A DNA stretch of 64,000 nucleotides, from NCBI RefSeq assembly GCF_921293095.1, contig NC_060253.1, positions 75,677,992-75,741,991 on the forward strand. Reading direction: 5' to 3'. Under the pieces are notes generated by a model, which ran no database searches, was not told the DNA's origin, and saw nothing but the letters and a program-made list of their open reading frames with translations. Shown one piece after another: positions 17,294-63,355 of this stretch (positions within the stretch are counted from its first letter, which is position 1; the number at the start of each line of letters is the position of its first letter). Position numbers and translations under genes: made by a program. The stretch comes from Ischnura elegans (lineage: Eukaryota > Arthropoda > Insecta > Odonata > Coenagrionidae).

Positions 17294-17532
17294 TCACTGC
17301 ACCTCACAGACGAAATACGTTTCGAACGAGCACGGTGTGTCGTTCCACTTGAGTCCCTTGCCGTCTCTGTTCCAGAGTTCCAGGCAGTGTTCCTCCTCTC
17401 CGTTCTCGTAGCGGAAGTTGTTGGGTTCTCCAGCGTTCCAATTGGTGTACGTTACTGGGCGACCGTTCGACAGCCAGAAGAAGGTACCCTCCTCACCCTG
17501 GTCGGTGCCGGATGTCCAGAAGTGCTCGAGAC
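17294..17532 (-). CDS. C-type lectin, terminal exon (EPN/WND, stop)
   Basis: Read on the minus strand from 17532, the exon completes a split glycine codon and then encodes 78 residues and a TGA stop (17294-17296). It starts LEHFWTSGTDQGEEG, the typical second half of an insect C-type lectin domain. EPN at exon residues 35-37 is the mannose-type calcium and sugar motif and WND at 62-64 is the second calcium motif. Cysteines at 49 and 67 form the inner disulphide pair. The cysteine at 75, in FVCEVQ just before the stop, should pair with the cysteine in the upstream exon. An AG acceptor lies at 17533-17534 and fits the phase-1 donors of the exons at 52805 and 63247. With intact EPN and WND, calcium-dependent sugar binding is expected. 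The product is probably secreted, but the signal-peptide exon is not visible. Confidence 0.9.
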
Positions 17533-18002
17533 CTAGGCCTATTGATAAAGAAGAGAAATTTCGAGATAAATATTCGTATTGTTTGAATTATTCCGGGAAT
17601 AGCCATGGTAATAACAATAAATATTGTATACAGGATTTTCCACTCTTCCGATTCCGTCGATTCCCGCCGGAAATAGTGACGCTCCAATCGCTAGGATGCT
17701 TGTCAATAGCCCGCTAGAGATACGCTAGGCGGCAAATTTAATCGCTCATTAATAGTAATGTGTTTCTACACAGCTGGCATGAGCTTATTTTTTTGCAATA
17801 TGCATATTCACCGCGTAGCGTATCTCTTGAGGGCTAATACATATAGTCACATGTATCCTAGCGACTGGAGCGCCACTAATTACGCCGACCGGTGGTAGTC
17901 AGTGAAGTCGCGGGAATGGAGAATAGTAGGATCTCCTGCTATTATAAACTCTTTGGTGATAACTTTACTAAGTCACCCACAATGCACAAATGTGAGGAAA
18001 AA
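17533..18002. other. Flank of the lectin exon, nothing further recognised
   Basis: Beyond the acceptor the sequence is AT-rich with a pyrimidine-poor start. No other lectin exon or repeat is recognised before the tRNA-like segments. Confidence 0.4.
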
Positions 18003-18090
18003 TCATCCGCCTTGATAGCGAATCGAACTGGGATTACTCTTTTTCTGGCAGAGGGATTTAGCTAGTTTAGCAACCGATGCATCAATCCCC
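18003..18090 (-). repeat. tRNA-derived SINE-like segment
   Basis: On the minus strand a degraded A-box region (GTTGCTAAACTAGC) is followed about 40 bases later by CCCAGTTCGATTCGC, which matches the B box of a tRNA-type RNA polymerase III promoter. A CTCT...AGAG stem sits where the anticodon arm would be. It does not fold into a full tRNA. With the plus-strand tRNA-like segment at 18158 it forms a head-to-head pair. Confidence 0.45.
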
Positions 18091-18157
18091 TCCGTGGAAA
18101 TTTGTGCGGTATTGTGTTGACCGGTATATTCCACAAATATCCACATAATGGGTTGAT

Positions 18158-18215
18158 GCTTTCGTAGCTTAGCTGGGTAAAGCACTCGGCTGGAAGTCGA
18201 GGGGTAATTTATCGT
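18158..18215 (+). repeat. tRNA-derived SINE-like segment
   Basis: TAGCTTAGCTGGGTAAAGC near 18165 is a good A box and D arm. It is followed by an anticodon arm with CTCGG pairing TCGAG around a seven-base loop containing GGA, a serine-type anticodon. The T arm and B box are not recognisable after 18210, so this is a 3'-decayed tRNA pseudogene or SINE head, not a working tRNA. Confidence 0.45.
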
Positions 18216-20619
18216 ATATCGGTTTGGGCGATTGATTTTTTTCGTCAGTAGAATATCGCACATTAGTACCCTGAAGCAAACAATTCACATGGGATAACTG
18301 TCATAATGTCCGTATTGGTGAAGAATGGCGTTGTTATATTTTAATGCTCCGTACCTGGGATATCAGAAAATAATGACTATTTTTAGGATCTCCACCATAG
18401 TATTTTATTATTGTATTTTTGATATTTTATATTCCTTGCGGTGATCATTGGAATTATTCCCACTTGAGTAAATGCCCGGACAAACAAAATATAGCGTTTA
18501 TATATGAGCCGGGGACCAGTTGCATATTAACATATATGTAACAACTAGTGCTATTTGGATTTTTAAATTGGGTTATAATATTCCTTGGAAAATCGGGAAA
18601 TGAAAAACAAATTCACCACCACCATGAAAGCATCACAACATTTAGTGTTATATATTCCTAACATGTAGGGCTAAGTATTTACTAGAGTATATAGTCATGC
18701 AGCAAATTCTAGTCAAGTAGGGAAAGTTAGTTTATTTTCAAGAATTTAGCTCTCCAGAAAAAAAGAAATGTCTTTTTATTAGAATTTTATTATAGCCAGC
18801 ACCGTGTATGCAACAAATGCCCTTACTTGTGTTCAAGTTAGGGCATTTGTTGAATAATATTCCTTTAGCGGAAGAAGCAAAGTATTTTTATGCAAGATGT
18901 AGTACATACGTAATGCAATGCAAGCTATTGTTTAAAACGAAATAGCTTACCTCAGAATTGAGTTAAGTAGGCTTAAATAAATGTAGCTGAAGCCCATTAG
19001 CAAATCTCTCGGTGAATTTGAAAAGTGCCATTTTCAGGCTTTATAAAACTCTCGCATTATTTTATTCCGATTTCTCAAAGAGGTGCAATGCCATTTTTTC
19101 AATTAGCTGTTGATATCAACTCAGTCACCATGGTAGCACTCTCTAACACTCTCCCACTTTTTTATAAAAAACAATAGCAAATGTTATTTACGGATCAATA
19201 AATCTTGCAGTAAGTTATCCCTGAATATTTCTCTCGCTCTCTTTGGTTTTTGAATACGTTTGGGTGGCGGTTGGCGTGGTACTGCCGGTTCATTTCAATC
19301 AGCTCATTTAACTATATAAGTTTCAAAAGAGTTACATGTGGCGCAAAATATGCTTTTTCCTTCCAAAAAATCTATGCATGAAAAAAATATTTTTACATAG
19401 GCTATTTTAAAATATTTATTTTATCGCAGTTTATTCATAAAATAGATCTGCCATACGGTGAATCTATTAAGAAAAAATATTAATACATCCCCATTTTCAT
19501 TGGCATATGTCATTTATATCTTAATTACTGCAAAAACATTAGCTGTGTTTTTTGCACCACCCTCGTGGCTATCAGAGTAGTCTTTTAGTTATTTCAGGCG
19601 TTGAACATGACCCTACCTTTGGGAACGCTAGTACATTTTGCTGTAGTTGACCCCTTTGACGGTCATTTTACGGTTGCTTCCATCAAAGTCAGCTTTTTGG
19701 GTCTAATTTGTAATGGAGACGTGAAATATGCTGTCATTATGGGCCCTACTTTCTACACTATCTTGTTCCCATTTCTCTATGGCCTCTGCTGGCATCGTTT
19801 GAGTATAACGGAATTTATTTTGCTTCAAGCTAATTCATTAAATTATATTCCTCCTTCTTAAAGTTTTTTTTAAATCTGAATAAAGTGTTTTTCCGAGTCA
19901 AGGATGGCTGTATTCCGGTAGTGCGGCAGGATATGTATTATGGATAAATTTGTCCTAAATAGTTTTGAACTGTCATCTGAGACACTTTTGGAATATAGGT
20001 CAGATATTGAATCTTATATTAGGCATATTTGGAGAAGGAAATATTTAAATTAATCTACACAATTGCCCTCGAAGATGATTCTTCAATTGGTTCAAGTATT
20101 TCTCATTTTAATTAATATTGTATTTGCTGAATTTCATCCTCAGGCTTCCAGGGTAACTCTTGCCAATATTAGTATAATAACTTTTTAAAAGGGAGAGTTA
20201 TTAATGGAAGATATTCAAAGCGTTTTCATTTATTTCTCTTTTTCACTAGTAATATTTCCCCAATTTCCTTCCCTAATTAAATTTTGAGTTAAAAATATAA
20301 ATTGAGGGAGAAATAATATTGACGTGTTGACATCAGATGGGAACTTTGGAAAAAACATTACTTCCTGCTTCGCACCTTTTCCATGTTTTGTTAATTCTTT
20401 ATCGAATGTTTAAGGACTGCTGTATATTTATGTTACCGTTATTGTTGCAAACCGAGGTCGACGTTCGCAAACGGAAATATTCGCTTTAATACTATCGTCG
20501 TAATCATTAATCAACAATACTAACATTGGTTTGACGCAGCTTGGTTTGGTTCTTCCATCATCAATGCTAAGGTTGGCTCTGTTCCTCTCTCATATCCACT
20601 AGCCTTTTCATAGCGATGT
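18216..20619. other. No genes recognised; one short hairpin inside
   Basis: This is AT-rich sequence. The only clear structure is the 42-nt hairpin at 18811-18852. The 86-codon open frame at 19601-19861 has no recognised motif. Confidence 0.4.
18811..18852. repeat. Short near-perfect hairpin
   Basis: CAACAAATGCCCTTACTTG is followed by a four-base loop and its reverse complement with one mismatch (19-bp arms). It could be a palindromic remnant of a small element. The loop is short for a typical animal pre-miRNA. Confidence 0.7.
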
Positions 20620-20940
20620 ATATCTTCCGTTTTACTTCCTTTACACCCCCTATCCTATGTATTTTTTGTTCTACCCTGTCATATATTTAGCCGCATTCAA
20701 TGAAATCAGATGTATTTATGAGTTCATACGTTTGTCTTGCTGTTAATTATATACATATATGATTTTTTTGTTCCACTCTGTCATATATTTAGTCGCATTC
20801 TGAGAAATCGACGTATAATGTAAATCTACTTATTCTTGTAATATGTCTGACTCTATTATATTTATAACCATAAATGTTCCTACGGGACAAACTTGTCCCG
20901 GAATAATTAATTTCTATTCTATTCTATTCTATTTCTATCC
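20620..20940 (+). repeat. LINE-like 3' end with (TTCTA)n tail
   Basis: Near 20884-20899 a small hairpin (GGGACAAACTTGTCCC) is followed by AATAATTAAT and a tail of TTCTA units to about 20940. This is the arrangement seen at 3' ends of CR1/L2-like LINEs. Two similar segments about 100 bp apart upstream (CTGTCATATATTTAGYCGC near 20677 and 20778) suggest an internal duplication in the 3' UTR. No reverse transcriptase is recognisable upstream, so the copy is strongly 5'-truncated. Confidence 0.45.
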
Positions 20941-21065
20941 TGTGCAACTGATTCGGGGCTGACCCTTGTCAATCTTGTACAGTTCTAATGAAGTTGATGA
21001 TTGGTGAATTAACTTTGTGGAAGTTATACATGATAAAATATATAAAATTACTTGGTACTTTCCAC

Positions 21066-21210
21066 ACAATTTTCAATGTTTTGCGACCGGTCTCGACGTG
21101 TTCTACTTCATTTTCAAGCTAGACTGCCTAGCTTGAATCTGGCGTGCAACGGTCTAGCTTGAAAGTGACGTAGAACACGTCGAAACCGGTCGCAAAACAT
21201 TAAAAATTGT
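21066..21210. repeat. 145-bp hairpin with GAAACCGGTCGC motif
   Basis: The arms of about 59 bp (21066-21124 and 21152-21210) are close to perfect complements and contain GCGACCGGTYTCGACGTG and its mirror. On the plus strand the right arm reads a short ACGT/ACGT stem followed by CGAAACCGG. The hairpin adjoins the left arm of the Penelope palindrome and has no counterpart on the right, so it was probably a separate unit. Confidence 0.85.
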
Positions 21211-21648
21211 ACTATTATAATTCATTTTCGGGAATACGTCTGCGTGCTATTAATATTTAACTCAACGTTTCGTTCCACTTACTGGGAACGTCGTCAGGAG
21301 AATGAAAATATAAACACCTATCATACCGTTGGAAAAACTGGTCCATTGTTGTTAAGGTATTTAAAAAAGTAAATAAAAATAAAATAAAAGCCAACTTCTT
21401 TAAAACATCTAATATAAAAAAAAAGGAAGATGAAAGGTGGAATATTGTAATTAAATTTTCGAAATGTATCTCTTCCACACATGGCTTAAATTATATCCAT
21501 CATCCCTGTTAAAATTCATTGGTCTTTTAGAAATTTCTATCGCCTCTCTAATAAGCCGTGGATAATATGCAGATTTTCTTGCAATGGCTTTGGCCTCATC
21601 CAGGAGGATCTTGTGTCCTGGCCCCGACATAAAATGATCGGCGACAGC
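21211..21648 (-). repeat. Left arm of 438-bp inverted repeat
   Basis: It begins ACTATTATAATTCATTTTCG and is mirrored by 21994-22431. Arm sums are constant (21211+22431 = 21648+21994), showing no net length change between arms. It carries the C-terminal part of the GIY-YIG protein and the 3' UTR of the Penelope-like element. Confidence 0.9.
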
Positions 21649-22029
21649 TGAAGTTTCCCATTGCCTTGCCTTCAGCGCCCTTTCATGCTCTTTCAGCCTT
21701 GTCACTATCTTCCGTTTGGTCTGTCCGATGTAACTAGACCCACATGAACACGGAATCTCATATATGCCTTCCATTTGTAATGGGGGAACAGCATCAATGA
21801 CGGATGGAAGTAGGTCTCTGATCTTCCTCAACGTGCCAAACCTGGTTTCAACGTTGGCTTTTCCAAGGATGCGAGCAATCCGGTCCGTTGTTCCTGATAC
21901 GTAAGGCAGAACTGCAAAAGCACTTGGTTTTGTTTTCTCCATCGGGGCCTTGACTTCCCTTAAAGCTCTCCTAATGAATGAATTAGCATATCCGCTGTCG
22001 CCGATCATTTTATGTCGGGGCCAGGACAC
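21451..22029 (-). pseudogene. Penelope-like element GIY-YIG endonuclease, 5'-truncated
   Basis: The 192-codon open frame has the GIY motif at residues 88-90 (GIYEIPCSCG) and YIG at 100-102 (SSYIGQTKRK). A likely catalytic arginine is at 111 in TRLKEH, and a DHFMSGPGHKI segment is near 131-141. This is the GIY-YIG nuclease found at the C-terminus of Penelope-like retroelement proteins, where it nicks target DNA. Residues 41-75 (LPYVSGTTDRIARIL and following) match the linker between reverse transcriptase and endonuclease. The reverse transcriptase itself is absent. The apparent start MSWPRHK is an artefact of reading across the junction with the inverted arm. The domain is open to its natural end, but without the polymerase it is a dead fragment. 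Confidence 0.88.
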
Positions 22030-22431
22030 AAGATCCTCCTGGATGAGGCCAAAGCCATTGCAAGAAAATCTGCATATTATCCACGGCTTATTAGAGAGGC
22101 GATAGAAATTTCTAAAAGACCAATGAATTTTAACAGGGATGATGGATATAATTTAAGCCATGTGTGGAAGAGATACATTTCGAAAATTTAATTACAATAT
22201 TCCACCTTTCATCTTCCTTTTTTTTTATATTAGATGTTTTAAAGAAGTTGGCTTTTATTTTATTTTTATTTACTTTTTTAAATACCTTAACAACAATGGA
22301 CCAGTTTTTCCAACGGTATGATAGGTGTTTATATTTTCATTCTCCTGACGACGTTCCCAGTAAGTGGAACGAAACGTTGAGTTAAATATTAATAGCACGC
22401 AGACGTATTCCCGAAAATGAATTATAATAGT
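21994..22431 (+). repeat. Right arm of 438-bp inverted repeat
   Basis: This is the inverted copy of 21211-21648. It starts within the codons for the AVADHFM segment of the endonuclease and runs to the element's 3' end. It has no start or upstream domain of its own and is a 5'-truncated partial copy. Confidence 0.9.
22345..22375 (+). other. Hammerhead-ribozyme-like core motif
   Basis: CTGACGAC is followed by a GTTCC/GGAAC stem with an eight-base loop and then GAAACG. The identical motif lies on the minus strand at 21267-21297 in the mirror arm. The order CUGANGA, stem, GAAA is that of a hammerhead ribozyme core, and hammerheads are known in Penelope-like elements. One extra C lies before the stem, and I cannot find a convincing stem I or stem III, so activity is doubtful. 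Confidence 0.35.
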
Positions 22432-22492
22432 GCATCTAATCGCTGCGAAAACCTTAAAACTAAAATTAAAAATTGTGTTGAAAGTACTAAGT

Positions 22493-25301
22493 GATTTTAT
22501 TTTATCTTCTACAGTTCCATTTTTATGTACTGAAATTTAATTTAAAGCGCATCGAAACCATATTATTTCCAGAAATAATTTTTGCATTGTTTAAAAAATA
22601 CTTATATCAACGCGAGTAAGGGTTAGAATATATTTTTTTCACACACGTCAGTGAAATTTGTCCTGCTTTCTTTCCCCTTCTCACCGTCTCTATCGAGTCT
22701 TCTTCCCTCCGCGTAGTGGTTCCTCCTCTTTCATATTTAATTACTATTTTGACTCATTCCCCAGCGTCTGGACCGCCGGTAATCGAGGTCACGTCTTCAT
22801 GGCCACGGAGTTATCCCCAAGTAGGATGGGGCGGACAGCAGAGGCCATTGGCTGGAAACCTTTGGCATCAATCGTTTTCGATCGTATTTCGAAAGTTCAA
22901 TTCGTTTAAATCTATCTCATAAGGAAATTGCGTTGTGAAGCTGTGCCTCAGTCCATCCCGTGTAGTGATGTACCAAATCGATTGATTAAATTAGCTATTA
23001 CAGCTTTTCGCACAGTTCTTGATCTTGTACTTATATTGCCTGCCAAAGGTTGACCTGAATCAATCACTGGCATATTTAATTTCCATTCAACATAACGGAT
23101 ATCAAATAAAATTTTATCACATCTCCATGCCAAAATTTCTGCATTAAAATTGATAATATAGGAATTCACATCACATTAGAATTAACACAATTCAGTGTTA
23201 GAAACCCTTTGCGCCTTTCGTTAAGACCAGGCTAGCTGACCAGATGTTAAAATTAGTTTATTCTGTGTGTTTCTATATCTATTAATTCTATTTAATATCA
23301 GCAAACACCGTGAAAATTTTCGAGAGAATGTCATTTTTGGCAAAGTTTTATCTAATATCATGTCTTTTTATTCAAACTAATTCACTACTTTACTAATTAT
23401 AAGCAACATTCAATAAATAGCTGTAAAAAGATATTCGTGAAAGTTGCTTATTTTTATAATATTTTGGTTATCGATGGTTATTTCTATTTAAAATTTTAGA
23501 TCCAGCCACGCTGAAAACCTTGTATGAATCTACCCATTTATAGAGCAGAACTCAACGACGGATCACTAAGGTAAGCCAAAATGTCATCAAATTCATCATT
23601 GCTTAAAATACAATATCTCCACTTTCATTTTAACACTGTATAATGTTATAAAGACATTTATTTCGCTAATATATCACTCGAAACATATTTACTACAGTAA
23701 ATGCTTGGAATAGGCTGCGATTCTTCAAAATACTGGACGTTTTTCCATCATTACTACAGTTGTGTTTATGCTTTATTCGCGAGTTCGATAAAATGATGAC
23801 AAATGCTGCATAATGATTATGATTCATGAAAGTTTGATTTTTTGGCATTCAATTTAAAATTCTCCACTGTACAGTTTAATGTTTCAGCATTTAAAAAATA
23901 CCCTATATTTGTTTCAGTTCTTCATTTATCAACTCGTTTTGCAGAATAGAAATTGGAGTAGGACCGTGTTGTCTCCATATAATATATACGATTTCAATCA
24001 AATTATGGCGGTCGTGTTGGATTTTGGGCCAAGTAATTAATCAGTTCTATTTAATTTAAGCGCGCCTGTCATTCGCATGCTGAAGTTATTAAAAACGACC
24101 CCCTTTTTTGCTTTTCGGCTCTGCTATTTCGTTACTTTTTTCCAATAAAATGAACGTAACCTTATCGCATGACGGAAAAAGGCCTTTACGCATGCGACTG
24201 CCATTATGACCTACTTCAGTCCGAGGGCATAAATCGGTCAATGATTGAAATGCGACGAAGATTGCGTTGATGAAATGAAAATTAGTCCGCACGGAAGAAG
24301 ACTGGAAAAATGAAATAATAATCACTCATATTGAGCTGCTAAAAACTCTAGTGAGCGATGCGTTTGAAGTGTTAATTTATGGCACCCAGAGCAATCAAAT
24401 TTCTTGTTAATTTCATTTATAATTGATTGCCGATATTATGAATCTGCTCATACTGTCCAACCCTTGTGATTTTGCAATTGAGATATTATATCAATTGAAA
24501 AGTCATTTTCATTTAACGGATATTTGCTGCTCATTAGAGCTACAAATTCTACCCTCATTACGAAACATGTTGTAAGAATGCTATACTCATTGGTATTTTT
24601 CCAGTAAAAAGGCTTCTCGACTTTCCCAAATGTTCTCACAAAGAGATTACATCATAGGTGTGGATAAAATAATTTATTTTAATTTAAACAAAATTTCGCA
24701 CTTAATGCCATATGCATTCAGTCCAGTGCATGTAAAAAATCAAACAATTTTGCTGCATTTGTTGGTCACTATGACATCATTTTTCTATTTTGGACCAACC
24801 AGAGTGTATCAGTGGACATTACCGTCGTCTTGCGGTGCCTTTCTTTTTTAATTTTTAGGTAACTAGTTTTAGAAAAACGCCATCAGGTGTTGTTGAATTT
24901 GGCTTTCAAATTTTCATCTGTTTCGGCCTGCGACAGGGAACATACTTTTAATAGGAGTTGATAACAATCTGCAATTATGGAGTAACTATTTTTTTCTTTC
25001 TTTCATCAAAATCGTGACATATTTTCATCAAAGTGGTCTTTGATTGGAATCTTCTTTGAATTTTTTAAAAATATTCCTTATTTAATTTATCTTTCAATTG
25101 TTTGGAACTCGTCATGTGTACCTACTACGTGTGAATAACATGAAACTGTATTGCTCATTGACATCCCTACATCTCACAAAGTAAACACGTATCTCAATCA
25201 TGTATCTATTTTACAAATAAATGAACGTTCCAAGTTTCACGTTTAACAGTTGAAAGAAATTAATTCCCGAAGTAAATGGTACGACCACGAATACTATAAA
25301 A
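22493..25301. other. AT-rich sequence, nothing recognised
   Basis: No supported gene or repeat. A GC-richer segment at 22750-22880 (+) has an open frame containing VWTAGNR, faintly like a C-type lectin strand, but it lacks the cysteines and calcium motifs. Confidence 0.4.
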
Positions 25302-25440
25302 GAGGATCCTCAAATCTCCCTCTAAATGTGGTGACACCCTCCTCGCATTTTAATGGATTTACAAAAGTCACCACACGCGTCGCTGAGGCAAAATGCGATC
25401 CTAGTTTCACGGGTAAATAAGGTATAAGTAATTCTGAGTT
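25302..25440 (+). repeat. Dispersed repeat, copy 1
   Basis: The segment from AAAAGAGGATCCTCAA through CTCTAAATG, GGATTTACAAAAGTC and CGCGTCGCTGA to GTTTCACGGG recurs in inverted orientation at 32215-32345. The order of blocks is kept and identity is roughly three quarters by eye. The family is not recognised. Confidence 0.65.
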
Positions 25441-26188
25441 TTAACCGAAATTTTTTATGCATAGTTATGTAATCCATCTAATTCATAATTTTTTAATGCT
25501 ATTCCACGCAATTACAAACATTTTACTGGAAAATATTAGAAAACAGTATGGATCCCATTGTACTCATTACCGCGTAGTGGACATTTTTGAAAACCGATCA
25601 AATTGCGACCGAAGTGGCAACAGAAAGTAGCCTACTGTAGGATTGAATTAGGCCTCCTCTGAGCAATCCTCTTGAATACGGCCATGGGGAATTCATTCCT
25701 TTCAACCATATATTCATGCTCTTTAAGTGCACTTTACCGTAACTCAGGGGTATAATTTTTCTCGTGAGACTCCCACCCGCGATCTTAGAAGGTACGGTGG
25801 CTCTGGTGGAGGGATAAGTGACCTTTCAGGGTTATTGCGTGAGGAGTCGCGGGTAGGGTTGGAAGCGGGAGCTGCTTCATCGTGGGGTGTTTATCCGACT
25901 GTGAAAATGCCACTGTCAAGGAATCCTGGGAACCCCAAAAGGCTTCTGCCGTCCCCAAGGACCGATCCAAACTCTAAGCGCTGGGTGCATAGGGGGAGAC
26001 TAAGGGAAGGAGTCGCTAAATCGCCTCCACGTCCATTGAGAAAGTCATCAGAAAAGAAAATTATGCCATTAATCATCAGAGTTATAATCAGAAAATATAA
26101 AAAATAACTTGTCTTTTGTATGAAAAACTCGTGTGTTTAGAAATACATGTCAAAATCACATTAAATACACATCACACTACATTATCAT
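25441..26188. other. Mixed sequence with GC-richer part, nothing recognised
   Basis: A GC-richer stretch at 25780-26060 has a 126-codon plus-strand open frame (25727-26107) rich in Arg, Pro and Ser, without any motif I recognise and also open in part on the other strand. I do not call it a gene. Confidence 0.35.
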
Positions 26189-26333
26189 CAGTGCTGTAGT
26201 TAGAAAAAAAATTAGGTGGTTCTCATCAAAAATTCCAACAGCTAAACATGTATTATACATCCGGTCACGAACCGATAACCGATACGCGTTTGGATTTTAG
26301 GGGGTACGCCGTACCGGCCCAATTACAGCACTG
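26189..26333. mobile_element. Small hAT-type MITE
   Basis: The ends CAGTGCTGTAGTT and its mirror AATTACAGCACTG bound a 145-bp segment without coding capacity. The eight bases on each side (ATTATCAT and TTCATCAT) match at six of eight positions, as expected for an old hAT-type 8-bp duplication. CAG...CTG ends and an 8-bp target site are hAT traits. Confidence 0.55.
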
Positions 26334-27226
26334 TTCATCATAAATTATTTGCGGAGATGAACGAATACTGAATAAAACGTAAGTAAACGTGTACAGAAGA
26401 AAAAATCTCAGATCTCTGTAATGTTGGTGACATTTTCGAGGTAATTCCATGGCAACATTGCCATAGCGCAATATTACGTGTGGAAAAGTTTAACGGCAAT
26501 AGCTAACGAAAATATCCCAATCTTATTAATACGCTGTCATAATAACTACATCTGCGTATGGAGTTTTCTGTAGTTATCCGCAAGTGGAAGGTGACTAAAT
26601 TTAGCTCTTTTTTTGTTCTTTCAAATTTGTTAATTTTTTGTCTTTAAAGAAGTAAAGACGTCAAGAAAATTAGTGTTAAGGTGAAATATCTATCCATTCG
26701 GCGCTGAATAGGGTTCATTCAGTAAATCTCCACCGCCATTCTGATGCATTTTAACCCGGAACTTCGAATTAGGATACCCACACCCTTTCTACATAGTTTT
26801 GTAAAATGCTATAGGATTGCAAGATTAGTAAAAGCCTAAGTTTTAAGTTTATTAAAGTGGGCAAATATAGGAGCTTTCATGAACGTTTATTTTTTGCCAA
26901 ATGTTTTGAGTAAATTGTTTCACTTTCGGCGGTGGAGGGCGTGGTTTGAGGAATCATTATTTTTTTCGATCGCCCACATTTTTACCTGATAACTTATACT
27001 GAAATTCGACACACGCAAGTTATATTACTCTCATTCAATCTAGGGGCTCTTCAAATTAAGAATTTTTCCAAGAAATTTGGCACTCATTTAATTTTTTTTT
27101 CCTTCATTATCTTTCATATATATTTCTTAAAATCTAGTCATTGCAGATCTTAAAACTTAGTTTCATTAAACTTTATCTGAATAGAATTTTTTTCTACGAA
27201 CTCTGAGAGGGTTTTTTCCGTGGTAA
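26334..27226. other. AT-rich sequence, nothing recognised
   Basis: No gene, RNA or repeat family is recognisable here. Confidence 0.4.
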
Positions 27227-27322
27227 TACCAAAATGGGTCTTGTAAAGGACTTGCAGATGATACCAAAATGGGTCTTGTGAAGGAATTGTACCTAATACC
27301 TAATACCTAATAAATACCTAAT
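27227..27322. repeat. Two short tandem repeats
   Basis: ATACCAAAATGGGTCTTGTR occurs twice with a period of about 36 bp (27228 and 27259 regions). Three to four copies of the 7-mer TACCTAA follow at about 27290-27322. These look like replication-slippage repeats. Confidence 0.75.
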
Positions 27323-27559
27323 TTTCGCTCAAATCAGACTTCTAGCTTAAAATCTATACAACATTCCAGCAGGATGAGTTTATACAAATGGAGTAAAATG
27401 CATATTGAACTAATTCTTAACGGTCAATGTGGATTAAATGCTTATTTCTTGCGTATGTATATTCAGCGTCACATTTTTTATGACATTTTATCTGGAAAGT
27501 ATGTTTTATTATTTAAGATGGTTATAATTCGAGTTTCCGGGATATCCACCCGCAAGTTA

Positions 27560-28400
27560 ATGCACATGTTGAAATTTTACCAGTAACATAGAGGTATACG
27601 ATGCCTGAAGACTTCTCCTGAAATTATTTATATTGGTCTCAGTCGTTTGAAGTACATGAATAACGATTGGTAAAAGGTATTGGTAGGTTCATGATACTAA
27701 ACTCAAACCTCTAAAAATAATTTTTCCCAGCTAATAAGATACGAAATCCCGGTAACGCACACACTATATTTTTCTATATTTCTCATATCCACTGCATAAC
27801 ATTGCTACCCTAGCTGCAGTTTGCGGAGCTCTCGTGTTTTCTGGTGACTTAGTGAATCCATTCTCTGCAATTTCCTAATCCGAGTAGATGTCATATATTT
27901 GGTCCGAATTACCAAAAAGCTCTCATGCAGCTGGCATCATCCAACAGTTTTTGTAGATATCATTTCGTATTGTTTGGGTTTCATTCAGCCCAATGATCCG
28001 TTAGATTTCGAGTGTGCTACACTTCTATCATAAAAGCTTCGTTAAGCCAAACATGGGCTGACAAAATATCTGTCTACCAACTTGTCGAAATTGAGTGTGC
28101 AATACATAGTGGTGAAAAACCACCGGCCTTTGCCTGTTATGCTATTGGGAGATATATAAGAAATTAATGGATTGGTGAGAAAATGCATCGAAATTTTGGG
28201 CTTCATTCTTATTATACAAAGTGGGCAGATTGCAGGTAAATACTTCTAGAGGATATACCTAAAGACTTCTTCTGGATTTTTTTTATATTTGACTCAGTCG
28301 TTTTAAGTACAAGTCTAACAATGCGAAGTAAGTATTGTTATGTTGAGGATGCTGAAATCAAACCTCTAAAATGTGTTCTTCCTAGCCTTGAATACATAGA
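27560..28400. repeat. Diverged direct duplication, period about 656 bp
   Basis: The block at 27603-27730 (AAGACTTCT, CTCAGTCGTTT, AAGTACA, AAACCTCTAAAA, TTCCYAG) recurs in the same order at 28259-28385. The upstream flank (AGAGGTATACGATGCC) also has a counterpart at 28249 (AGAGGATATACCTAA). It is an old tandem duplication or a pair of copies of one repeat. Confidence 0.6.
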
Positions 28401-29039: not shown

Positions 29040-29159
29040 TTCATTTAAGTTTTATGCAAATGAGGATCTCTTTGAGGATAGGTATTAGTTTTATCACTTT
29101 CCCGGACCGAATAAAAACCTGTTGTTTTCGGATTCTAAATGCTTGAAATTTACGTGATG

Positions 29160-50439: not shown

Positions 50440-50461
50440 TATCATAATTATTTATTTTAAA

Positions 50462-52232: not shown

Positions 52233-52495
52233 GGTAAAATTTTCTCGGGTTTGGCACCAGGTACAGTTGTTTAAGGCCAACGTTTCGATGAGAAACTCCC
52301 TCATCGTTATCAGGGTTAAGACTGACTGGACATAATCACTGAAGTGACGGCATAAGAATTACTGCACTTCACTGTTGATATGGCGTGATTTTATATATGC
52401 AGTCGGTCTTTGCATCGATGATGATGAGGGAGTTTCTTATCGAAACGTTGGCCTTTAACAGCCTTATCCGGTGCCAATCCCGAGAAGATTTTATC
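52233..52495. repeat. 263-bp palindromic element with hairpin-GAAAC motifs
   Basis: GGTAAAATTTTCTCGGG at 52233 is mirrored by CCCGAGAAGATTTTATC ending at 52495. The arms of about 80 bp share the GGCACC-AGG segment, the AAGGCCAACGTTTCGAT segment and GAGAAACTCCCTCATC at roughly 80% identity. The outward reading of each arm is a GATGAG/CTCATC stem followed by GAAACGTTGG, at 52282-52313 (minus) and about 52415-52446 (plus). The open frames over it (52369-52599) are incidental. Confidence 0.8.
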
Positions 52496-52804
52496 AATAG
52501 TATTCTCTGGGAAAGCTTACGATCTTTTGAAATATTCGTGCGTCGAAGCAACATTACTGATAGAAAATTCACGGAAGGTACAATGAAATGAGTCGGCAAC
52601 CATCCCTTGTACCGCCTTGAACTTTAAGTGGGGTCATACTCTTAGCACCCACTCTCCCTCGATGACGCGAAAATGCATTGTCCTCGCGGCCTTGCTCGCA
52701 AGGGAAGCAAGTCGGCGACGCAAGAATCCCGATTCAGCCTCTCGTCCAGCCCAGTAACGGCCTCGCCCACGGCTGCTGCTGCTTCTTGGAAAAAAATGAC
52801 TCAC

Positions 52805-52913
52805 CATAGTCCCGTATGTGTTTCTCCAGCTTGTCGCTCTCCTCTTGACTCTCGATGCTGGCCAAATGCATCCCGTGGTACCTGCAGTACTGCGCCGCTC
52901 TGTACCAGTTGGC
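52805..52913 (-). CDS. C-type lectin internal exon, variant B
   Basis: On the minus strand an AG acceptor (52914-52915) precedes 109 nt encoding 36 residues plus one base of a split glycine codon. A consensus donor GTGAGT follows at 52804. The peptide starts ANWYRAAQYCRYHGMHLASI and continues ESQEESDKLEKHIRDY: the first helix and following strand of a C-type lectin domain, with the conserved WY, the cysteine that pairs with the last one of the domain, and LASI. The phase-1 end joins the terminal exon at 17532 to give DYG-LEHFW without a break. It is 20/36 identical to the exon at 63247-63355 and has the same length and phases. The exon with the signal peptide and first strand is not visible. 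A longer 142-codon open frame over this exon (52634-53062) is a different frame and not the product. Confidence 0.88.
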
Positions 52914-55569
52914 CTGGGGATCACAAGTGGTTTGGAAAGGGAGGAGGGAGAAAAATGGATAGGAAGGAAGCCGAAGGAATCGGTTGAGGGAGAGGTATGT
53001 GTGGAAGGTTTTGAAGGAAAGGGTTGCGTGCGTCGAAGCGCATGTTTATTACAATCCACCAATAAAAAAAACCTTTAGTGGGGGTTTCAGTCGAGACAGG
53101 TTTCCTTGGCTTGGGGTTTTTGACTCTTTGTCTTTCTTTCTTGGCTGAGTTCTAAGAGTTGAAGGTCATACAGTCAAGGTATAAAAATGAGGTCTATCAC
53201 CTTACGTGCTCGCTCTGTGGATAAAATATGAAGCGAAATACCTTAGATCCTTTAGGCTTCTTTAGGTTTATTTCTTTGCATGTATAAACGCCGGGAGAGG
53301 TAATCATGTGTCGTTTTTTAATTCTTGTCCTCAAGCTGGAAACATATTCGCAGCGCTAAAAGCCTATTAATCATCAGTCTTACAGAACTCACCTTTCTTA
53401 GCGAAGCAAAATCATACATGGAAATATATTTTATACTTCTTTCATTATAAAAGCATGTTACGACTAAAAAAAAACAAAAAATGATCGCACTTCCATGAAA
53501 TAGATTCATCATGCGCATTTATTTTGTCAAACGTTGATTTCACGGTATTATTGTGCGAATACTTACTAGATATTATTTTTTCAAATCGATCGGGGTTTAA
53601 CGTGACAAAAACTCAAAGTCAATATCAAACAGCTTGGATTTTTCAAGTTTAAATCGTCATCCATAAATTCCAACACAATTAATGATCGTATCAGGATTGT
53701 GGTTTTGAATTTGAGGGACGATTGCAGTGAATTTATTCTCCGTATCTGTAGGTAGTCAAAAGAAAGTGGATGTATTGTTAATTTGAACTGTTCAACTCAA
53801 GGCGATGGAATAAATATTATCTTATTTAAGCATATAATACGTACATGCATGCATTTTTAAAATTAAAGTTGCCTAATTTTATGTTTTTAAAACCTTCTCA
53901 TTTCATAACCTCTGCATTATTAAGTACATCCTCAGCTCGGCTTATTTTATGTTATGCAAGTATGCGTTTTCTAAACTGTAATGAATAATGACGCCCTTTT
54001 GAATGGAGTCTCTACGTAGTTCTTATAATATCTGCTCTAAAAGTAAGGCTTGGCACGGCGCGAAGAGATTCACAATAAATGCAGGAGTGGATAAAGTAAG
54101 AAAATTGCCGTGTTTGAGAGAAAAAATTAGTTATTAACAATTTCCAATTGAAGTTTCAGCTCTATTTATAATATTTTTTTAAAAATAAAGTTAGCATTAT
54201 TTTCGAATTTTTGACTCGCTATAGAGCAAATGAAGAATGTTCGTAAAGGATGTAGTATATGTCAACTTTAATGTGTTCAAAAACTGTTGCAATAATAATG
54301 TAGACACATGCTACATCAATCCCGTATTTCTTTTACATAATTATGTTGCGAAACATCTCGCCGCATACCGTTGATTTTACTTTACAACATTTTCAACAAA
54401 TCTAAACAAAGGAGTAGGTTGTATTCGGCGGTACATAGTGGAATTCTAAGAAAATTTTGAATGAATAAAACTTAAAATTTGTGTTTTTTTCTACAGAATT
54501 TTTTATTCAATCACGGCCATGGTTTCGACGGTGTTACCAATAGATGACGTCAAAAATCTAAAAAATCGTCGTGATTTAAAAAAAGAATCTGTGGAATAAC
54601 AAATTTAAAATTCTAAACACAGGAAAGGGATTGGATCGCAACAAGGTTCTTAGACTGTACCTTAGTACCCTGGATCGCAAAAAGTGCAGTACATCGAAAA
54701 AATTAATTTTTTTTCTCCTCCACCGGGTATTTTTACAAGAATCACAACCAATTTATGCCAAGTTTCTCACGAATACATGCGAAGAAAAAATGCGCAGTGC
54801 AGCCTTAAGCTGTTTGCAAAAAAATGGGATGCGGATTGAGAGAGAAAATTTTGGCTTGCCTCCTCCTTTTGAGTGAGCTTTTGGAAGCTGTCGAGCCCGG
54901 CCCTCATGATTGGCGAGAGCAGAAGCCGACTCCTTAATTGCTTCCTTCTGTTTATCGCCGGACGCATTTTCATAAGTGGATTCTCGGAAGAGAGACGTTT
55001 CACATTCGTGAATTTAAATTGGTGTGGGATTTTTCCATGGAAAGATTCCTCGTGCTCGTTGAAGGTCGATAGCATGGGCCAAGTTTTGTCCATTGACCCA
55101 TTATAAGGCATCGACCTCCTCCCAAAAGGAAATAAACTCACTTTCGTTTCCGATTTTTACATATTATGTCATAAACTATTCGAGATAAATATACGGTGGT
55201 GAGATTTTTAAATATAATTATGGCCACTCCAACATCTTTTATAATAAAAATTGTAAAACATTCTATTCGGCTCCATGATTTATGATATTATTATTGCGCT
55301 TATGTGTTTACCCAAGAGATTCCCAAACCTTGACGGCAAATATGTAATCAAACCCCTGGGTTTGGTGTGTTTGGGCTGTTAAGCATGGACATATTTTTAG
55401 AGGTCAGTGCCCGGAAAGGAATGGCAGATGGATCTCTAACCTCCGCTAAGCCTTTTAATGAGCTCTTACGGTCGTTATTGCTAAGATTCCAAATTCAAAT
55501 TAAATGGTATTTTGAGGAGACGACCGACAGCTGAGGTCATTTGCGCCATGAGGGAAGGGGTAGGTAAAG
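52914..55569. other. No gene recognised
   Basis: This lies between the two lectin variant exons. Open frames at 54767-55141 (minus) and 54873-55106 (plus) overlap and have no motif. A TGACGTCA-like word lies near 54545. Confidence 0.35.
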
Positions 55570-55805
55570 AAGGGTGGAGAGAATCCCAGCGTCGGCATTA
55601 GCCTGCTCTTAACGTGAGGCGCCAAGGGGACCACGGCCTAACGTCCCATCCGACGGACGGAGTGTTGCGTTTGAAATGTCCTCCACACAACACTCAAGCA
55701 GGGATCGGGCAGTCTCTGAGAATTCTCTGCCACCGCCGGGATTTAAACTCGAGCCCGCCTGCTGGGAAGCCAACACTCTAGCCACCACACCAACCCGATC
55801 CCCCC
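55570..55805 (-). mobile_element. tRNA-derived SINE
   Basis: On the minus strand the head at about 55800-55735 reads GTTGGTGTGGTGGCTAGAGT, GTTGGCTTCCCAGC and GAGTTTAAATCCCGGC. This is a tRNA-like A region, an anticodon-like TTCCCAG loop (glycine type) and a B box close to the consensus. The body continues GGCAGAGAATTCTCAGAGAC and GACGTTAGGCCGTGGTCCCC, a segment I recall from arthropod SINEs. The pairing of the anticodon stem is poor, so it is a SINE and not a tRNA gene. Confidence 0.75.
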
Positions 55806-58499
55806 GAATTCAAATTAAAATTTTTGAAAAGCAAAGACTGAGTGGTCGGATAAAGATCAGCATTATCAAATTTTAAGTGAATTTCATATGCATCGCATTG
55901 TTTTTAGTGTACTCAAGAGAGGAGTCAATCATCTTTCCTTATTGAGAACTTATCGATTAGTCTTGCATGATTTAATTCTTCAACCTCAACCCCCTCATGC
56001 GGCTTTGAATTCGTCAAACGTCCTCACATTCTCTCGGAGTATAACATCGCATGGAATGGTTTCCACGTTAAAATGATTGACACATTAATGGTGGGCTCTC
56101 AATAGCCCTGGACCCTGTAATTTTCGGATACGGATGAGAGCTTGAGTTACGTGATCTTATTACTCTTCCCCCTCGAGTCGCAAATAAACGAGAGCACTTA
56201 ATGGCTGAATTAATCTGGGGAGACAGCGTAGATGGGTATCTCAGAGAGAGAAAAAAATAAGCGATAAAAAGTATTGCCCATCGGTGACGAAGTCGAAATA
56301 AACATATATTGTCAATAGAGAGACGTATGTCTTGCGGTGTAAGCGGATTCTTATGAAATAACTGACTTATCTTTCACTTACTTATTGTTCATATCTCTAA
56401 AATAGTTGCATAAATATCCTGATTAAAATGCTGCCCATATATCTAAATGCACGGAAAGAGGTACTTAATGTGAAAAACTGAAATTCATATATGTTTATCA
56501 TTAAAAAAAAATAAACTGACTCATATTTAAGTCTGTATTTCATTGCTACTCCCAGATTGCTAGCTTAAAGTATAATATTGATCATGCAACAAGGCTTTTT
56601 AAGCAATTTTAATATCTCGGGAAATGCTGCGAATCATTATTATTATTTATCATTGAAATGTCACCTCCCTCGCGCATTTGAATGTAATGCAAGCCTGATA
56701 ATGAGGATTAAGAAGCCAAATCGAATGCCATTGTGCATTATGGATGAAGAGATATTTATTCTATCTATTCGTATAACCACCGAAATTTGATAAATCTGCT
56801 GCTTTAGTCTTCACCACAGGTCTATATTTTGGAAGCTATGGTTCTCACAGTGAGTTCCCGATATTTTCCGCCCTGTCGTAGCTCACTCTTGCAGAAACCG
56901 GTGGGGGTCAGATTTGGAGGGACTAATTGCCGACCTTTCATCCCGTGACTCTGACCCAGAAATGAATAGGCGACTCTTCCCGCTACATCTTGGCTGTGGA
57001 CATTACGCACATGCCTTTTTTTAACGAGCGTCCCCCTCCTCCACGCGTCCCAGATTCGTCCACGTGACAAATCCGGATGGCGGAATGCGGACATGGGGCG
57101 ACACAGTCTCGCGGATTTAAATGAGGAGGTCCTGAAAAACGAAACACCGGGCGTATATATCCGCACGCAAAAATTTTCGTCCCCGATACGCGGAATTTTT
57201 CCCAATATTTCCTCGATTTCCCGAGAATTCTGAACCTTTCCGAATGCACAGATTTATTTACTCTTGAAAACATTTTGATGCTATTCCCACTATTGATAAA
57301 ATAAGCATTCTTTTGCCTTTATTATCAAATACGCCTTCCTCTCCAATTTGTTTTCTAGATATCGTGCTCCCATCCTATAGTGTCCTGTGGTTCTTTTTTC
57401 AATGAAATGGTAGGAAATAAAATGTAGTTTTTAATCAAAGTAAAACAGTGAAATAAAAAGTGGTTATAATTTCATATTGTAAAGCATCGAATTAAATACA
57501 TCGAGAAGAGCTATCGCTACTCGTATGAAATAATTTTTGCGTCCAATGCATCATATTTCATGAAATATGACTTTTTAAATATACATTACGGATGTTTTAA
57601 ACATTATTTAACTTAAACTTTCAAAATATTTACACTGTTCCCCTAGATTGTGCTAAAATTATGAAAATCTGTTGACGTGCAATGCCTACGGTTGAATTTG
57701 ACAATGCTTTTAATTCACGATTTTTGCTGACATGTGGTATTTCTGCTGAAGAATTAATAGTATTAGATATATTAAGCACATTTTATTATTAACAATATTT
57801 TTAGTACTAAATATGCATTGACTATGAGGACCCTTCGTAATTTGAATACATTTTTTCCCCAATGATATCATTTAAATAGGTATGTATACGCTGCTGACTG
57901 TAGCATGGAAGGGCGTACGAATGAAATGGCAGTTCCTTCGAATATGTTACATTCTGTGTTTCACTCATTATTTTCGTAATTGTTGCATTACTGTTGTCGG
58001 ACTTTAGAATATTGACAATTTTTATTTAAAATAATCAAATTCTCAAAAAATAAAATAAAACTCGCCCGTCGTTCTATTTCCCGAAGGGCTCTTAAATTGG
58101 CAAGGGTCAATGGCTGCCGTAAGTGGGCGATCGAATATTTTATTCAAAATTTAACGAAGGTAAGACCATCAGTCCTTATTTGGGCCTTAATCATCAGGTA
58201 TGAAAAGTTTCCTGCTCCACTCTCTGACCATGAACGGCTTGCGTTGCTCCCGCGTATAATTTCACCGATTGTCGTGTCGCCTGTTATTATTTGATGGAAA
58301 CATTCATGAATTTGTTTCTTCGTTTTAGCGATCGGTGCATTGATGACAGAGCTAAAACCGTGTAATTTTTTCTGCTGTTGAGGGGTATGATTTTCTTTAC
58401 CTCTTGAGATCGTGGATAGAGGCTGGAATTATCGAGATTTCTATAATTTCGGGGCCTGGAAGATTGCGGAAAGAAAACAATAGGAACACTTATCTGATT
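55806..58499. other. No gene recognised
   Basis: Overlapping minus-strand open frames at 56822-57273 in a GC-richer part carry no recognised motif. The remainder is AT-rich. Confidence 0.35.
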
Positions 58500-58588
58500 A
58501 AGTTTTACTGGATATCAGATAATTACTTATACCCCTTGTTTTTGAGAGTGTAATTTTTTTTGTAATTGTCTGATATCCAGGAAAACTT
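58500..58588. repeat. 89-nt hairpin with 27-bp arms
   Basis: AAGTTTTACTGGATATCAGA plus seven bases (58500-58526) is mirrored at 58562-58588 with two mismatches, around a 35-base loop. Size and loop are compatible with a pre-miRNA, though near-perfect pairing also fits a small palindromic element remnant. Confidence 0.8.
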
Positions 58589-59363
58589 ACAATGGAATAC
58601 CACAAAGTAAATCAAGAGTTAGTGAATTTTGACGTATCTGATTATCTTGGGTTTCTATTAAAATGCATGATACAATGGCTAAGGCTTTTATCAAAATTCT
58701 AACATTAAAATCGCCATTTGTTTTTTAACGGGTATACGTTCTAAAAATCTTGACCAAAGCCCATTCCTTTGCAATTTAACAAATATATCAACTCAATTTT
58801 GACGAAATTTTCTCGTATTCCTAATAAATCAATGAAAACTTATCGATGTCGACCAAATCACCTGACGAAAAAAATCCGTATTCATATATATTTGGCAAGG
58901 GGTCCCTCCTCACCTCACTTTATCCAAACGACATCTAACGTCTTCCAGGTTTGGCCGACTTTTAACGGCCAAATGATCGAACTCTATGGTCGTACTATAA
59001 TACCTAAGTTTTTATGCACCTCCAATTTTGTCAATATAGATTCCAGGGTCAATTTTGCCATGATTTCTTTATCCAAGCACTAGGGACTAATAGATTAGAG
59101 AGGCGTTTCTAACAACAATCGATGTGCTTGATTATCTTTTGTCATATTGTACCTTAAAAATAAACTCAGAGCTTATACCGTAAAACCTTTGATTAGGTAG
59201 TCCACTTAAACCGGATTTATTTATAAAAATGACTCTAAAAAGGAATCTTAATTAATTTTGGATTCTTCTCTAAATTATCTGTGATATATTTAATTTGATT
59301 CCCACCTTGATAAAATAGCATGCCTGGAATAATCCTCAGTTAAAATTCGAAGGCTATGCATGG
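58589..59363. other. No gene recognised
   Basis: The 104-codon open frame at 58769-59083 (+) has no motif I recognise. Confidence 0.35.
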
Positions 59364-59793
59364 CAGTGGCGGATGTATGGGGGGGCCTATAGTCCCCCCT
59401 TGGGTCAGTGGCATAGCCAGGAATTTCGTTCGGGGGGGGGGGGGGTCCAAAACCAGGGAAGAAAATTTTTGAAAAACAGGGTAATAAATAGAGGGTTTTT
59501 AACTAATTTTTATACTTTTCATAATCGAAAACACTTCATTCGTTAAAGAAATATTTATATATTAAAAAATTTATGATTCTTCAATATTTTGTTTTTCTTT
59601 TATGAAGGAAAATAATTTTTTTTCTGTATTTCGGAGGGGTCCGGACCCCCCGAACCTTCCCCCCTGGCTACGCCACTGCCTTGGGTATCCAATTTACAAT
59701 AGATAGAATGGTAATTTTTTCCGACCCCCACTACTGCTTGAATTTTAACCCCCACTTAGTCCCCCCCTTTTCCCTATCCTGGATCCGCCACTG
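59364..59793. mobile_element. hAT-like MITE (outer), interrupted
   Basis: CAGTGGCGGATGTATGGGGG at 59364 and its mirror ending GGATCCGCCACTG at 59793 are the ends. Without the inner insertion and its duplication the element is only about 149 bp. The flanking eight bases (ATGCATGG and GTGTGGCA) no longer match, so this is an older insertion. Confidence 0.7.
59406..59678. mobile_element. hAT-like MITE (inner), with 8-bp target duplication
   Basis: The 273-bp element starts CAGTGGCATAGCCAGG and ends CCTGGCTACGCCACTG. It is flanked by a perfect 8-bp duplication CCTTGGGT (59398-59405 and 59679-59686), the hAT signature. A run of 14 G follows the left end. It inserted inside the outer element and has no coding capacity. 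Confidence 0.9.
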
Positions 59794-62700
59794 GTGTGGC
59801 ACAAGTTATGACTTTTCTGTGGCTATCTAATCCTTAAAACCAGCACTAGATGTTTTGAAACCTGTTTACCATGCCCTTTCTCGACTCAACTCAATTCTTA
59901 TCTCGAATTAATCGGATGATATATCCTTTCTGCGATGTCCTCACGAAGTTGAAAGCCTTATATTTGCGGTGCTGTAATGCCAGAACGTAGTGGACTGGTA
60001 TAGGGAGGACTAATATGGAGCGAGGAGGTTAGGCTATTATTTAAACAGAGCAGAGAGAGGGAGGAGGAAAGTGTGAAATTCTTTTACAGCCTTCATTTTT
60101 AGGGAAGGGGAATCGCGGATATTTTTTGGCCGCGCCTGAGCGGAGGCAACGTCCGCTATTTTATTTTTTTCTGCCCGGCCGGGAGAAAGAAATGCTTGGG
60201 CGGCCGATTTTTGGGAAAATGGTTTCGCGTGGGCAGGGTGTGGCTTCAGGGGTTCTCTGTGCTCGGGAGAGGTGGAGGTGAAGGACCGCTTGTTTGTTGG
60301 AACCACCGCGGCCAGTAACACGAAAGGGTACGATGTTAAAAGTGCTCTCGACCTGCAGGGAACTGGTCGTTGAACTGTGGGGGGTCATTGAGCGTCGTGT
60401 CCTGCGGTCAAAATCCATCAAGGACACGCAAAAGTGCGCCAAATGGTGGAAGGAGGGGAGAAATGAGACGAAGTAATTTGCGACCACTCCAATGAGATGG
60501 CTGAGTTACAGAGGCGACCGTGAGACTCGGAAAATATATACATCCGTCAGATGATCTCGTGAGATAAGAATGTACGACAGTAATCAAAAAATGATTATGC
60601 TGATGAGAAGCTTCACTTGAAAATTTTATTTAAAGAAAATACTGTTGAATATTATTTGAACAAGACAAGGCCATTCCTCTATTTTTGAGGTTATTTTCGT
60701 AACCAAATTATTGCGTTTCCTAGCAGCTTGAACACAAGCACCTATGACTGAAACGATCGTGACACAGATAAAAAAGCTTTTATATCAATCCCTTAAAATA
60801 CTAAAAGCTATTATTTAGTGTCTTTAGGAAAAAATATCAAAAATCTTCGTATTATTTTGATGCTCATGTGTATTCATTTTTTTCTAATCAATTTACTAGA
60901 AAACCGATGTCGTACCCGCTATGCTTTTGAAATGTATAATATCATTTGTATACGTTCACCTATATCAAATTTTAGTCGTTACAAACAGGCTAAGTATTTA
61001 TCTTCTATCAAGTCGATTAATCTGAATAATCCTCTGATATACTGATATCATATTTAAAGGCTATATCTTACATGTAGCCTATAGCCTAGCTTAGCGTATA
61101 ATACAGGCCTAAATAGTTAAAAACGGTTACAGCCTATCTATGTCATCATAAAGTGTAACTATATAACTTTTTACCAATAAATGGGGCAATTGTAATGTTT
61201 AGTATTCATATTTTTTTCTTTCAGATTATTGTAAAATGAATCATCTTGTTCTAAGAATTGACACAGGAGATTTTCATTCATCTTTCGTAAAAAGGTTGTC
61301 ATTTTGGCCTCAACGTACCCAGAATTAAATTCCACTTCTACGGTCCTAATATTCTCTTAGATATTCCTTTTATATGAAGTTGCCAAATAGGGTAGTTTCC
61401 TTCATCAAAGGAAACTAAAGGCATTGATTGCGATCCGTTACCCACGATTAGTGTATTCATAATATAAAAATTATTTGGTTTTAGAATTTCCAGTTTAGAC
61501 GAATGTTTATTTTAACGAATGTCAATTTTAACATCATTTGAAAAAGTCCAGATTGGCGCCCATGCGATGCCACTCCACGTGACGTCACAGGGATCTAGAT
61601 GCTATTCGAGCAGTCAGGAGTTTTACATCGTCTGAGATTACCATTGCATGCATGAGGCACAGAGCTCAGGCAAACATCTCTTAATAATCACCTATTAAAA
61701 TTGCCTAAGATCGGAAAGCTTCCTTCGTTTGAAAGGATAGTGGTATCTAATCCTTATTTAAGCCAAGCGCTACCTGTTAGCTGGGTACTCTGCTACCTGC
61801 TAGCAGCCTGCATCGTAGCGGTGCTTATAGCCTCGCACCAAGGTGGCTTCACACAGCGGCAGCCGGAACGAAGTGAAGAACCAGAATGAAGTCACACGGG
61901 CTTTTCCCAGCATTCATACATAGCCGTCGCGTTTTCGTTCGCTTGAAAATTTTCACTTTTCATTTAATCGCGAAAAATAGATATCGTCATTTAAACATCA
62001 AAAAGCGTGAATACGTACTCCAAGAGTAATAATCTTTCGATTTAGGCAATAAAAAATGATAAGAAACCATCCTATTTTTCTACGCTAGTGGCGGTGTTTA
62101 ATCGGCTTGTAATTTAAAACATAACTTCACTAGTTTGGCTTTTAATCATACGCATTTTATGATTATCTTACATCTCTGGTTTTTATTTACCGAGCCACGC
62201 TGTCCTTTCGCTTTCATTAAAACTTTCCGGGTCGCGTGACTTGGGAAATGACGTGAAATATATCTCGGTAGCGCCCAAATTAAAAATTAAGTTCAGATTC
62301 TGTCTCATGCGAAGAGTATAAATTCAGCTATTTTAATGGATGGCTGCCAAATACGAGCTCGTTACGACTAAAAACTTGATAACTAAGCACTAGAATTAAT
62401 TACATTTTAATCAGCGATTCTATATTATCTGAACCTATTTTATGATTTAATTTTTGTTTATGAACAATCTTTTTGCATCCTAATTATACATTTATTTTAT
62501 GAATGCAATGAGGAATAGGACCAAATTGATACAAGAATATTGCTCCAAAAAGTGCTTCATGGAGCTTAAAATCCTTCATTTGTCAAGATATATGGGCAGA
62601 AGTTCTTATTTTAGTTAAATAGGTATTTTAACTCTATTGACAACTTGCAGTAGCTGAAATTAACGACATTTATCCAAATTTTGCGTTAATTAGCTAATCC

Positions 62701-63246
62701 ATCCGGCCTTTACACAGTGTGAGAGTTCATCAAAAAGATAATATATCGCTTTAAAAAATTGATTAAAATCAAAATACTAAAGACAATAGTCATCTGTTGA
62801 AGCATGAGTATGTATCCGTAAAATTTATCATAAATACCCAAGGTGATAAGGCAAAGTTATTAAAGCATAACCTATGTGTATATAAAAAAATAGGTGCGGT
62901 AGATACGAATCACATTATGTGAGAAGTAATAATTAAAACTATTCTAAGCATGCAAATAGAACTAATTTAAAAATGCGAAAAGGAGATGAAAAGTATTTTT
63001 CCTGTGAAGTAAGTGGTTAACAGATTCCGACATCAGTCAAGTCACCAGGAGTTAGTGGAACAGTGAAGAATTTTATAGCAACCAGAAATGTGTGAATAAT
63101 GAGTCCTGTGATGGAAATGGTTAATGAATTCCGACCACACCATGTTACCAGGAGACAGAAGAATGATGAAGAAGATTCGTTCCGAGAAAAGAGAGTGACA
63201 TAGGTTATTTACGTATAGAATGTTTATATTTTGCTTGCATTGCTAC
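59794..63246. other. No gene recognised
   Basis: A GC-richer part at 60040-60480 has overlapping open frames on both strands with no motif. ACGTGACGTCACAGG near 61577 contains a CRE-type word. The open frame at 61701-61889 is unassigned. Confidence 0.35.
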
Positions 63247-63355
63247 CTTGTGCCTTAACGTGGTCCTCTAGGAGTTGGTTTTCCTCCGCGGATGAGATGC
63301 TAGCGAGCTGCATGCCGTGAAAGCGACAGAATCTGTTGGCCTTGTACCAGTTGGC
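63247..63355 (-). CDS. C-type lectin internal exon, variant A
   Basis: On the minus strand, TGCAG acceptor (63356-63357) then 109 nt encoding 36 residues plus the first base of a glycine codon, then a GT donor (GTAGCA, weaker than variant B). The peptide starts ANWYKANRFCRFHGMQLASI and continues SSAEENQLLEDHVKAQ. It has the WY, the helix cysteine and LASI of a C-type lectin domain. Length and phases are the same as variant B, at 56% identity. It joins the terminal exon at 17532 in frame (AQG-LEHFW). It is either the upstream member of a mutually exclusive pair or part of a neighbouring lectin gene whose other exons lie outside the window. Confidence 0.86.

Follow-up and report, generated by a model that had tools for sequence, protein, structure and literature searches.

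Homologous exons of equal length and equal phase that lie between shared exons, each coding for the same structural elements, are known from the arthropod genes Mhc and Dscam1, and such exon likeness corresponds to the preconditions used by Kassiopeia, as given in excerpts of its description (PMC3923563). Here we describe a pair of exons with the same layout in a stretch of 64,000 nt from the damselfly Ischnura elegans (hereafter the window; RefSeq assembly GCF_921293095.1, contig NC_060253.1, positions 75,677,992 to 75,741,991), in a gene that differs from Mhc and Dscam1 in having two copies only, in coding for a small secreted lectin, and in that exclusivity is deduced here from sequence. 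With a probability of about 0.72, we read the locus as one C-type lectin gene, the probable orthologue of triforce, in which a shared upstream exon is joined to either of two alternative exons, A or B, and then to a shared terminal exon. The diversity of insect lectins is usually ascribed to gene duplication; if this reading is true, a strongly conserved single-copy arthropod lectin swaps an exon within its sugar-binding domain while the residues of the sugar site stay constant, a small-scale parallel to Dscam and Mhc. The mechanism itself would be ordinary, the likely counterpart in a mayfly adding interest, and the literature searches made brought up no report of paired exons of this kind for this lectin.

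All exons described here lie on the reverse strand. Exon A (63247..63355, ANWYKANRFCRFHGMQLASISSAEENQLLEDHVKAQ) and exon B (52805..52913, ANWYRAAQYCRYHGMHLASIESQEESDKLEKHIRDY) are each 109 nt long and run from phase 0 to phase 1, with 20 of 36 residues identical, values already given by a sequence-only reading of the window and confirmed when the sequence was read again. At the nucleotide level 62 of the 109 positions are identical, codon positions 1, 2 and 3 agreeing in 23, 24 and 14 of 36 codons, respectively, and the homology of the two exons has an E value of about 4e-12 in a region of 264 kb made up of the window and its flanks, 150 kb towards higher and 50 kb towards lower coordinates. 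Both are open in phase 0, AG/GT bounded and canonical in their GT-AG ends, A having the acceptor TTTTGCAG/GCC and the weak donor AAG/GTAGCA, and B the acceptor ATCCCCAG/GCC and the strong donor ATG/GTGAGT (slashes mark splice junctions). The shared terminal coding exon (17294..17538) carries the EPN and WND motifs and a TGA stop. That this exon is shared stood up to analysis, while its proposed start at 17532 gave way to 17538 as the likelier one, because the resulting GLGLEHFW equals in length the GLGHEHFW, GYGNEHFW and similar stretches of the homologues. The two acceptors, the preferred TATCAATAG/GCC at 17538 and the in-frame alternative CCTAG/GTC at 17532, form a tandem only 6 nt apart (TAG/GCCTAG/GTC), which could lengthen or shorten either isoform by two residues (LG) where the terminal exon begins. 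With the 17538 acceptor, the intron between A and the terminal exon measures 45,708 nt and that between B and the terminal exon (17539..52804) 35,266 nt, in line with earlier estimates of about 45.7 and 35.3 kb; the intron between A and B (52914..63246) measures 10,333 nt, and the intron that precedes A takes up 63356..64000 of the window.

The shared upstream exon was located beyond the window, at the equivalent of 68304-68428 (L015:4304-4428), and is 125 nt long, from phase 1 to phase 0. It encodes CANCVDDSGFGNSLGSNSLNRWTMPLLKLGEKRYYLGIFFK and is followed by a GTGAGT donor, its 3' end reading ...NRWTMPLLKLGEKRYYLGIFFK/GTGAGT and its protein ...YYLGIFFK. When the N-terminal parts of the homologues were aligned to the 264 kb, this exon was the sole strong place among the best 60 rows. 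As the upstream exon ends in phase 0 and the terminal exon begins in phase 1, both fit A and B alike. The pair agrees in length, homology, splice-site compatibility, frame and common flanking exons, as expected of mutually exclusive exons. Translation confirmed that either exon joins the terminal exon in frame, and the frame that runs through the upstream exon, A or B, and the terminal exon stays open as far as the TGA. Including both yields, as the sequence-only reading had claimed, a TGA at codon 14 of the terminal exon when this starts at 17532, the stop falling 87 residues past the start of A and ahead of EPN and WND. Skipping both leads with the 17538 acceptor to an alanine and then a stop (A*), i.e. 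at the second codon of the terminal exon, and to 26 codons with the 17532 acceptor. Exactly one of A and B is required to keep the frame, which is shifted if neither or both are included, and the two exons would thus be exclusive by frame, transcripts with none or both being predicted to be non-productive. Since the stop produced by double inclusion sits in the last exon, we do not claim that mRNA decay of the exon-junction type removes that product.

Copy number was assessed with a profile of the 36-residue segment encoded by A and B (96 rows, A and B among the members) and a profile of the terminal exon built from 113 homologues, both run on 11,988 six-frame fragments of the 264 kb. The segment profile recovered A (E value 3.5e-22) and B (4.6e-25), with the next best hit at 0.42, and the terminal-exon profile recovered 17297-17587 at 1.8e-52, with the next best at 1.4; tblastn over the same region was concordant, and neither approach found a further copy of the middle or of the terminal exon there, the A-B intron containing no further segment copy and the B-terminal intron no further lectin exon. 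In whole-genome searches, which score only the best candidates, the terminal exon gave a single strong match (1.6e-52, next 0.165), agreeing with the earlier failure to see a second terminal exon. A query joining the end of the upstream exon to exon B matched B (2.2e-18), A (4.9e-8) and the upstream exon (1.5e-7), and, weakly, two sites elsewhere, on other contigs (0.19 and 4.0). The single genome matches to the upstream and terminal exons, together with the upstream exon itself, therefore uphold the proposal of a single gene whose two middle exons are interchangeable. The alternative originally kept, a cluster of tandem lectin genes with missed exons, is unlikely and was rejected, as the searches of the 264 kb and of the genome (with the terminal and the upstream+B queries) revealed no second set of shared exons. 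An origin of A as a haplotype copy or assembly duplicate was likewise rejected, because third codon positions match in just 14 of 36 codons and synonymous divergence appears saturated, the Nei-Gojobori estimate (NG86 dS) for A versus B being returned as -1, which we read as saturation. Comparison of the intron flanks of A and B yielded a 16-nt match at the exon starts and two short matches at chance level, nothing more, so that the duplication is not recent.

As to its identity, the terminal exon alone scores 37.6 bits against PF00059 (Lectin C-type domain), where the Pfam cut-off is 22.6, and the homologue P0001 scores 62.5 bits. Two protein searches gave 255 and 232 homologues at E values up to 1e-3, the best 120 being listed in each, and the named ones come from Hymenoptera, flies, beetles, butterflies, bugs, stick insects, crickets, springtails and crustaceans. 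Two of them, P0027 (Arctopsyche) and P0052 (Oratosquilla), bear the RefSeq name triforce, and P0026 (Drosophila obscura) is 82% identical across the whole query. Excerpts of PMC4416719 describe triforce as CG9134 (tfc), a C-type lectin with a pigmentation phenotype in Drosophila. The damselfly gene, single-copy in our genome searches, is probably its orthologue, to judge from these names and similarities; the two Drosophila relatives that were inspected, P0026 and P0028, have a B-like exon. Among solved structures, the closest sequences to a protein made of B and the terminal exon are mosGCTL-1 (PDB 9t9z, E value 4.2e-20) and the C-type lectin-like domain of the phospholipase A2 receptor (7qsr, 3.4e-23), which share the C-type lectin domain with the damselfly protein, whereas the genes are different; these matches imply no alternative exon. 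In the predicted proteins P0023, P0029 and P0044, the B-like and terminal exons are continuous, and the stretch before them looks intronic and ends in Q, which would fit a loss of the B-terminal intron in these species.

A full segment was obtained by a simple pattern from 95 of 123 fetched proteins, i.e. two from the mayfly Cloeon dipterum and 93 others. Damselfly B reaches up to 92% identity with other segments and has one rare residue, and damselfly A has eight; judged by these sequences, B is the type carried by the inspected homologues. Five copepod-like segments (P0064, P0066, P0085, P0088 and P0089) have pairwise scores that do not separate A from B or that favour A by 1 to 2 points, and were called B-like because the signature residues of A are absent, not from the score. 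A search whose scoring was restricted to the A region returned two candidates, both predicted proteins of Cloeon dipterum (P0124 and P0125, E values 1.2e-11 and 1.5e-11). In both, ...YYLGIFFK is followed by the A-like ANWYKANRYCRYHGMQLASIDTEEENKFLQETIASQG, i.e. these models have a nearly identical upstream exon spliced onto an A-like exon. Residues N7, R8, Q16 and Q36 are common to damselfly A and Cloeon and are seen in 1, 0, 7 and 3 of the 93 others, respectively; of the eight rare residues of A, Cloeon has four and the next best row three. A tree of 96 segments placed A and Cloeon in one clade (support 92/85), which gives moderate support to a grouping of A with the Cloeon exon and makes an ancient origin of A likely. 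P0124 and P0125 differ in their first exons and have the upstream and A-like exons in common, so that alternative starts may likewise exist in the mayfly gene.

Under the proposed mechanism, the upstream exon (...YYLGIFFK, phase 0) would be spliced to A or to B, and then to the single terminal exon with its EPN/WND site. B would be the ordinary, strongly spliced version; A, an older duplicate whose donor is weak, would probably enter the mRNA only where a splicing factor promotes its inclusion, and the weakness of that donor predicts regulated use. Both isoforms would have equal sugar-site residues and a different alpha1-alpha2 face of the domain. In a structure model of P0001 (mean predicted local distance difference test, pLDDT, 67; predicted template modelling score, pTM, 0.53; pLDDT 78 to 83 over residues 61-100), the swapped segment corresponds to residues 60-95, with helices at 62-71 and 82-94. 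The common EPN/WND site of the sequence-only reading is thus retained, lying in the shared exon, while its restriction of the swap to a first-helix region has to be widened to the two helices of the model. Because EPN and WND sit in the shared exon, the swap would more likely change partner binding, assembly or stability than the choice of sugar.

Several observations weigh against a gene that makes two full lectins through A and B. On a donor matrix, the splice donor of A scores 4.2 bits, below those of B (10.3) and of the upstream exon (12.3), and 10.6% of the GTs in the 264 kb score at least as high as the donor of A. Both Cloeon models read through the A-like exon to a stop, without the terminal exon. 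The clade of A and Cloeon is based on 36 columns and is not starred, a clade of A with damselfly B is not rejected (log-likelihood 11.3 lower; approximately unbiased test, p-AU 0.242), and A is identical at 24 of 36 residues to ten of the other proteins, crustacean-like segments among them, as against 23 of 36 to Cloeon. The A signature N7/R8 was not found among the 120 listed proteins of one homologue search; the protein library was clustered at 90% identity, and A isoforms of other species could hide in its clusters, since exchanging A for B within a species alters, by our arithmetic, about 16 of some 180 residues. No candidate for a signal-peptide exon emerged from a strict scan of about 145 kb upstream, and the exclusivity of A and B is deduced from frame alone.

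Foremost among the alternatives, although we consider it unlikely, is that A is an alternative last exon, its donor remaining unused and cleavage occurring in the next intron, so that A would give a truncated protein of the upstream exon and A without a sugar site, and B the only full lectin. Besides the weak donor, read-through past A in the damselfly adds GSNASKI before a stop, and an AATAAA lies 750 nt beyond the donor. The Cloeon models end in the same way, adding SWAGQVASQRLTLGGFLSLPRE after the closing G and stopping 22 residues past the A-like exon and this glycine. Gene models of Cloeon were made by Augustus with hints from RNA sequencing, according to excerpts of PMC7250882, to whose annotation we assume P0124 and P0125 to belong, and transcripts that end after A are possible given such hints. 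The Cloeon donor after the A-like exon, moreover, cannot be GTRAGT, as the codons for Gly-Ser follow, from which we infer a weak donor there too. Against this, A retains a length of 109 nt and the end phase of B, both needless for a last exon; poly(A) hexamers also occur 633 and 734 nt downstream of B, as expected in AT-rich introns; and the Cloeon models may be incomplete predictions.

A further possibility, to which we give slightly less credence, is that A is a vestigial or seldom used duplicate, now irrelevant, and that the gene makes the B form alone. Its weak donor would fit this, as would the lack of an A-signature protein other than those of Cloeon among the listed homologues and a terminal branch longer than that of B (0.32 versus 0.09). 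However, A is without a stop and its splice signals are intact, its unusual residues are partly common to Cloeon, and the identity of the A and B proteins is far above that left by drift. In a simulation that started from B and applied 47 random changes to 108 bases, the observed difference, the number of identical residues averaged 9.2 and never exceeded 16 in 20,000 runs, so that 20 was reached in none of them; 12.8% of the runs remained without a stop. Because simulated drift never retained this identity, A has been kept by selection for a long time. Very improbable, finally, are two adjacent lectin genes whose second set of shared exons was overlooked or has dropped out of the assembly: C-type lectins of insects commonly form gene families and a curated assembly could contain local gaps, but the 264 kb are without any N, one terminal exon is found there by profile, and the whole-genome matches to the upstream and terminal exons are single.

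Starting from the preferred reading of one gene with interchangeable exons A and B, a more speculative extension can be put forward tentatively. A may represent an ancient switch exon of arthropod triforce that predates the split between damselflies and mayflies and has been dropped or hidden in most other insects, a conserved poor donor allowing a choice among three products: the standard lectin, a second one in which the helical face differs, and a short half-lectin that lacks the sugar site. Should the exon of the mayfly really be this one, the choice has persisted since early winged insects.

Other elements were noted in the window, both on the reverse strand and within the B-terminal intron. 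A 233-residue open frame at 21451-22152, containing SYIGQTKR...RLKEHERAL, resembles by eye a GIY-YIG (Penelope-like) endonuclease, with no Pfam match at an E value of 0.01. At 39009-39389, a fragment of a reverse transcriptase (RVT_1, E value 2.4e-15) marks the remnant of a retrotransposon.

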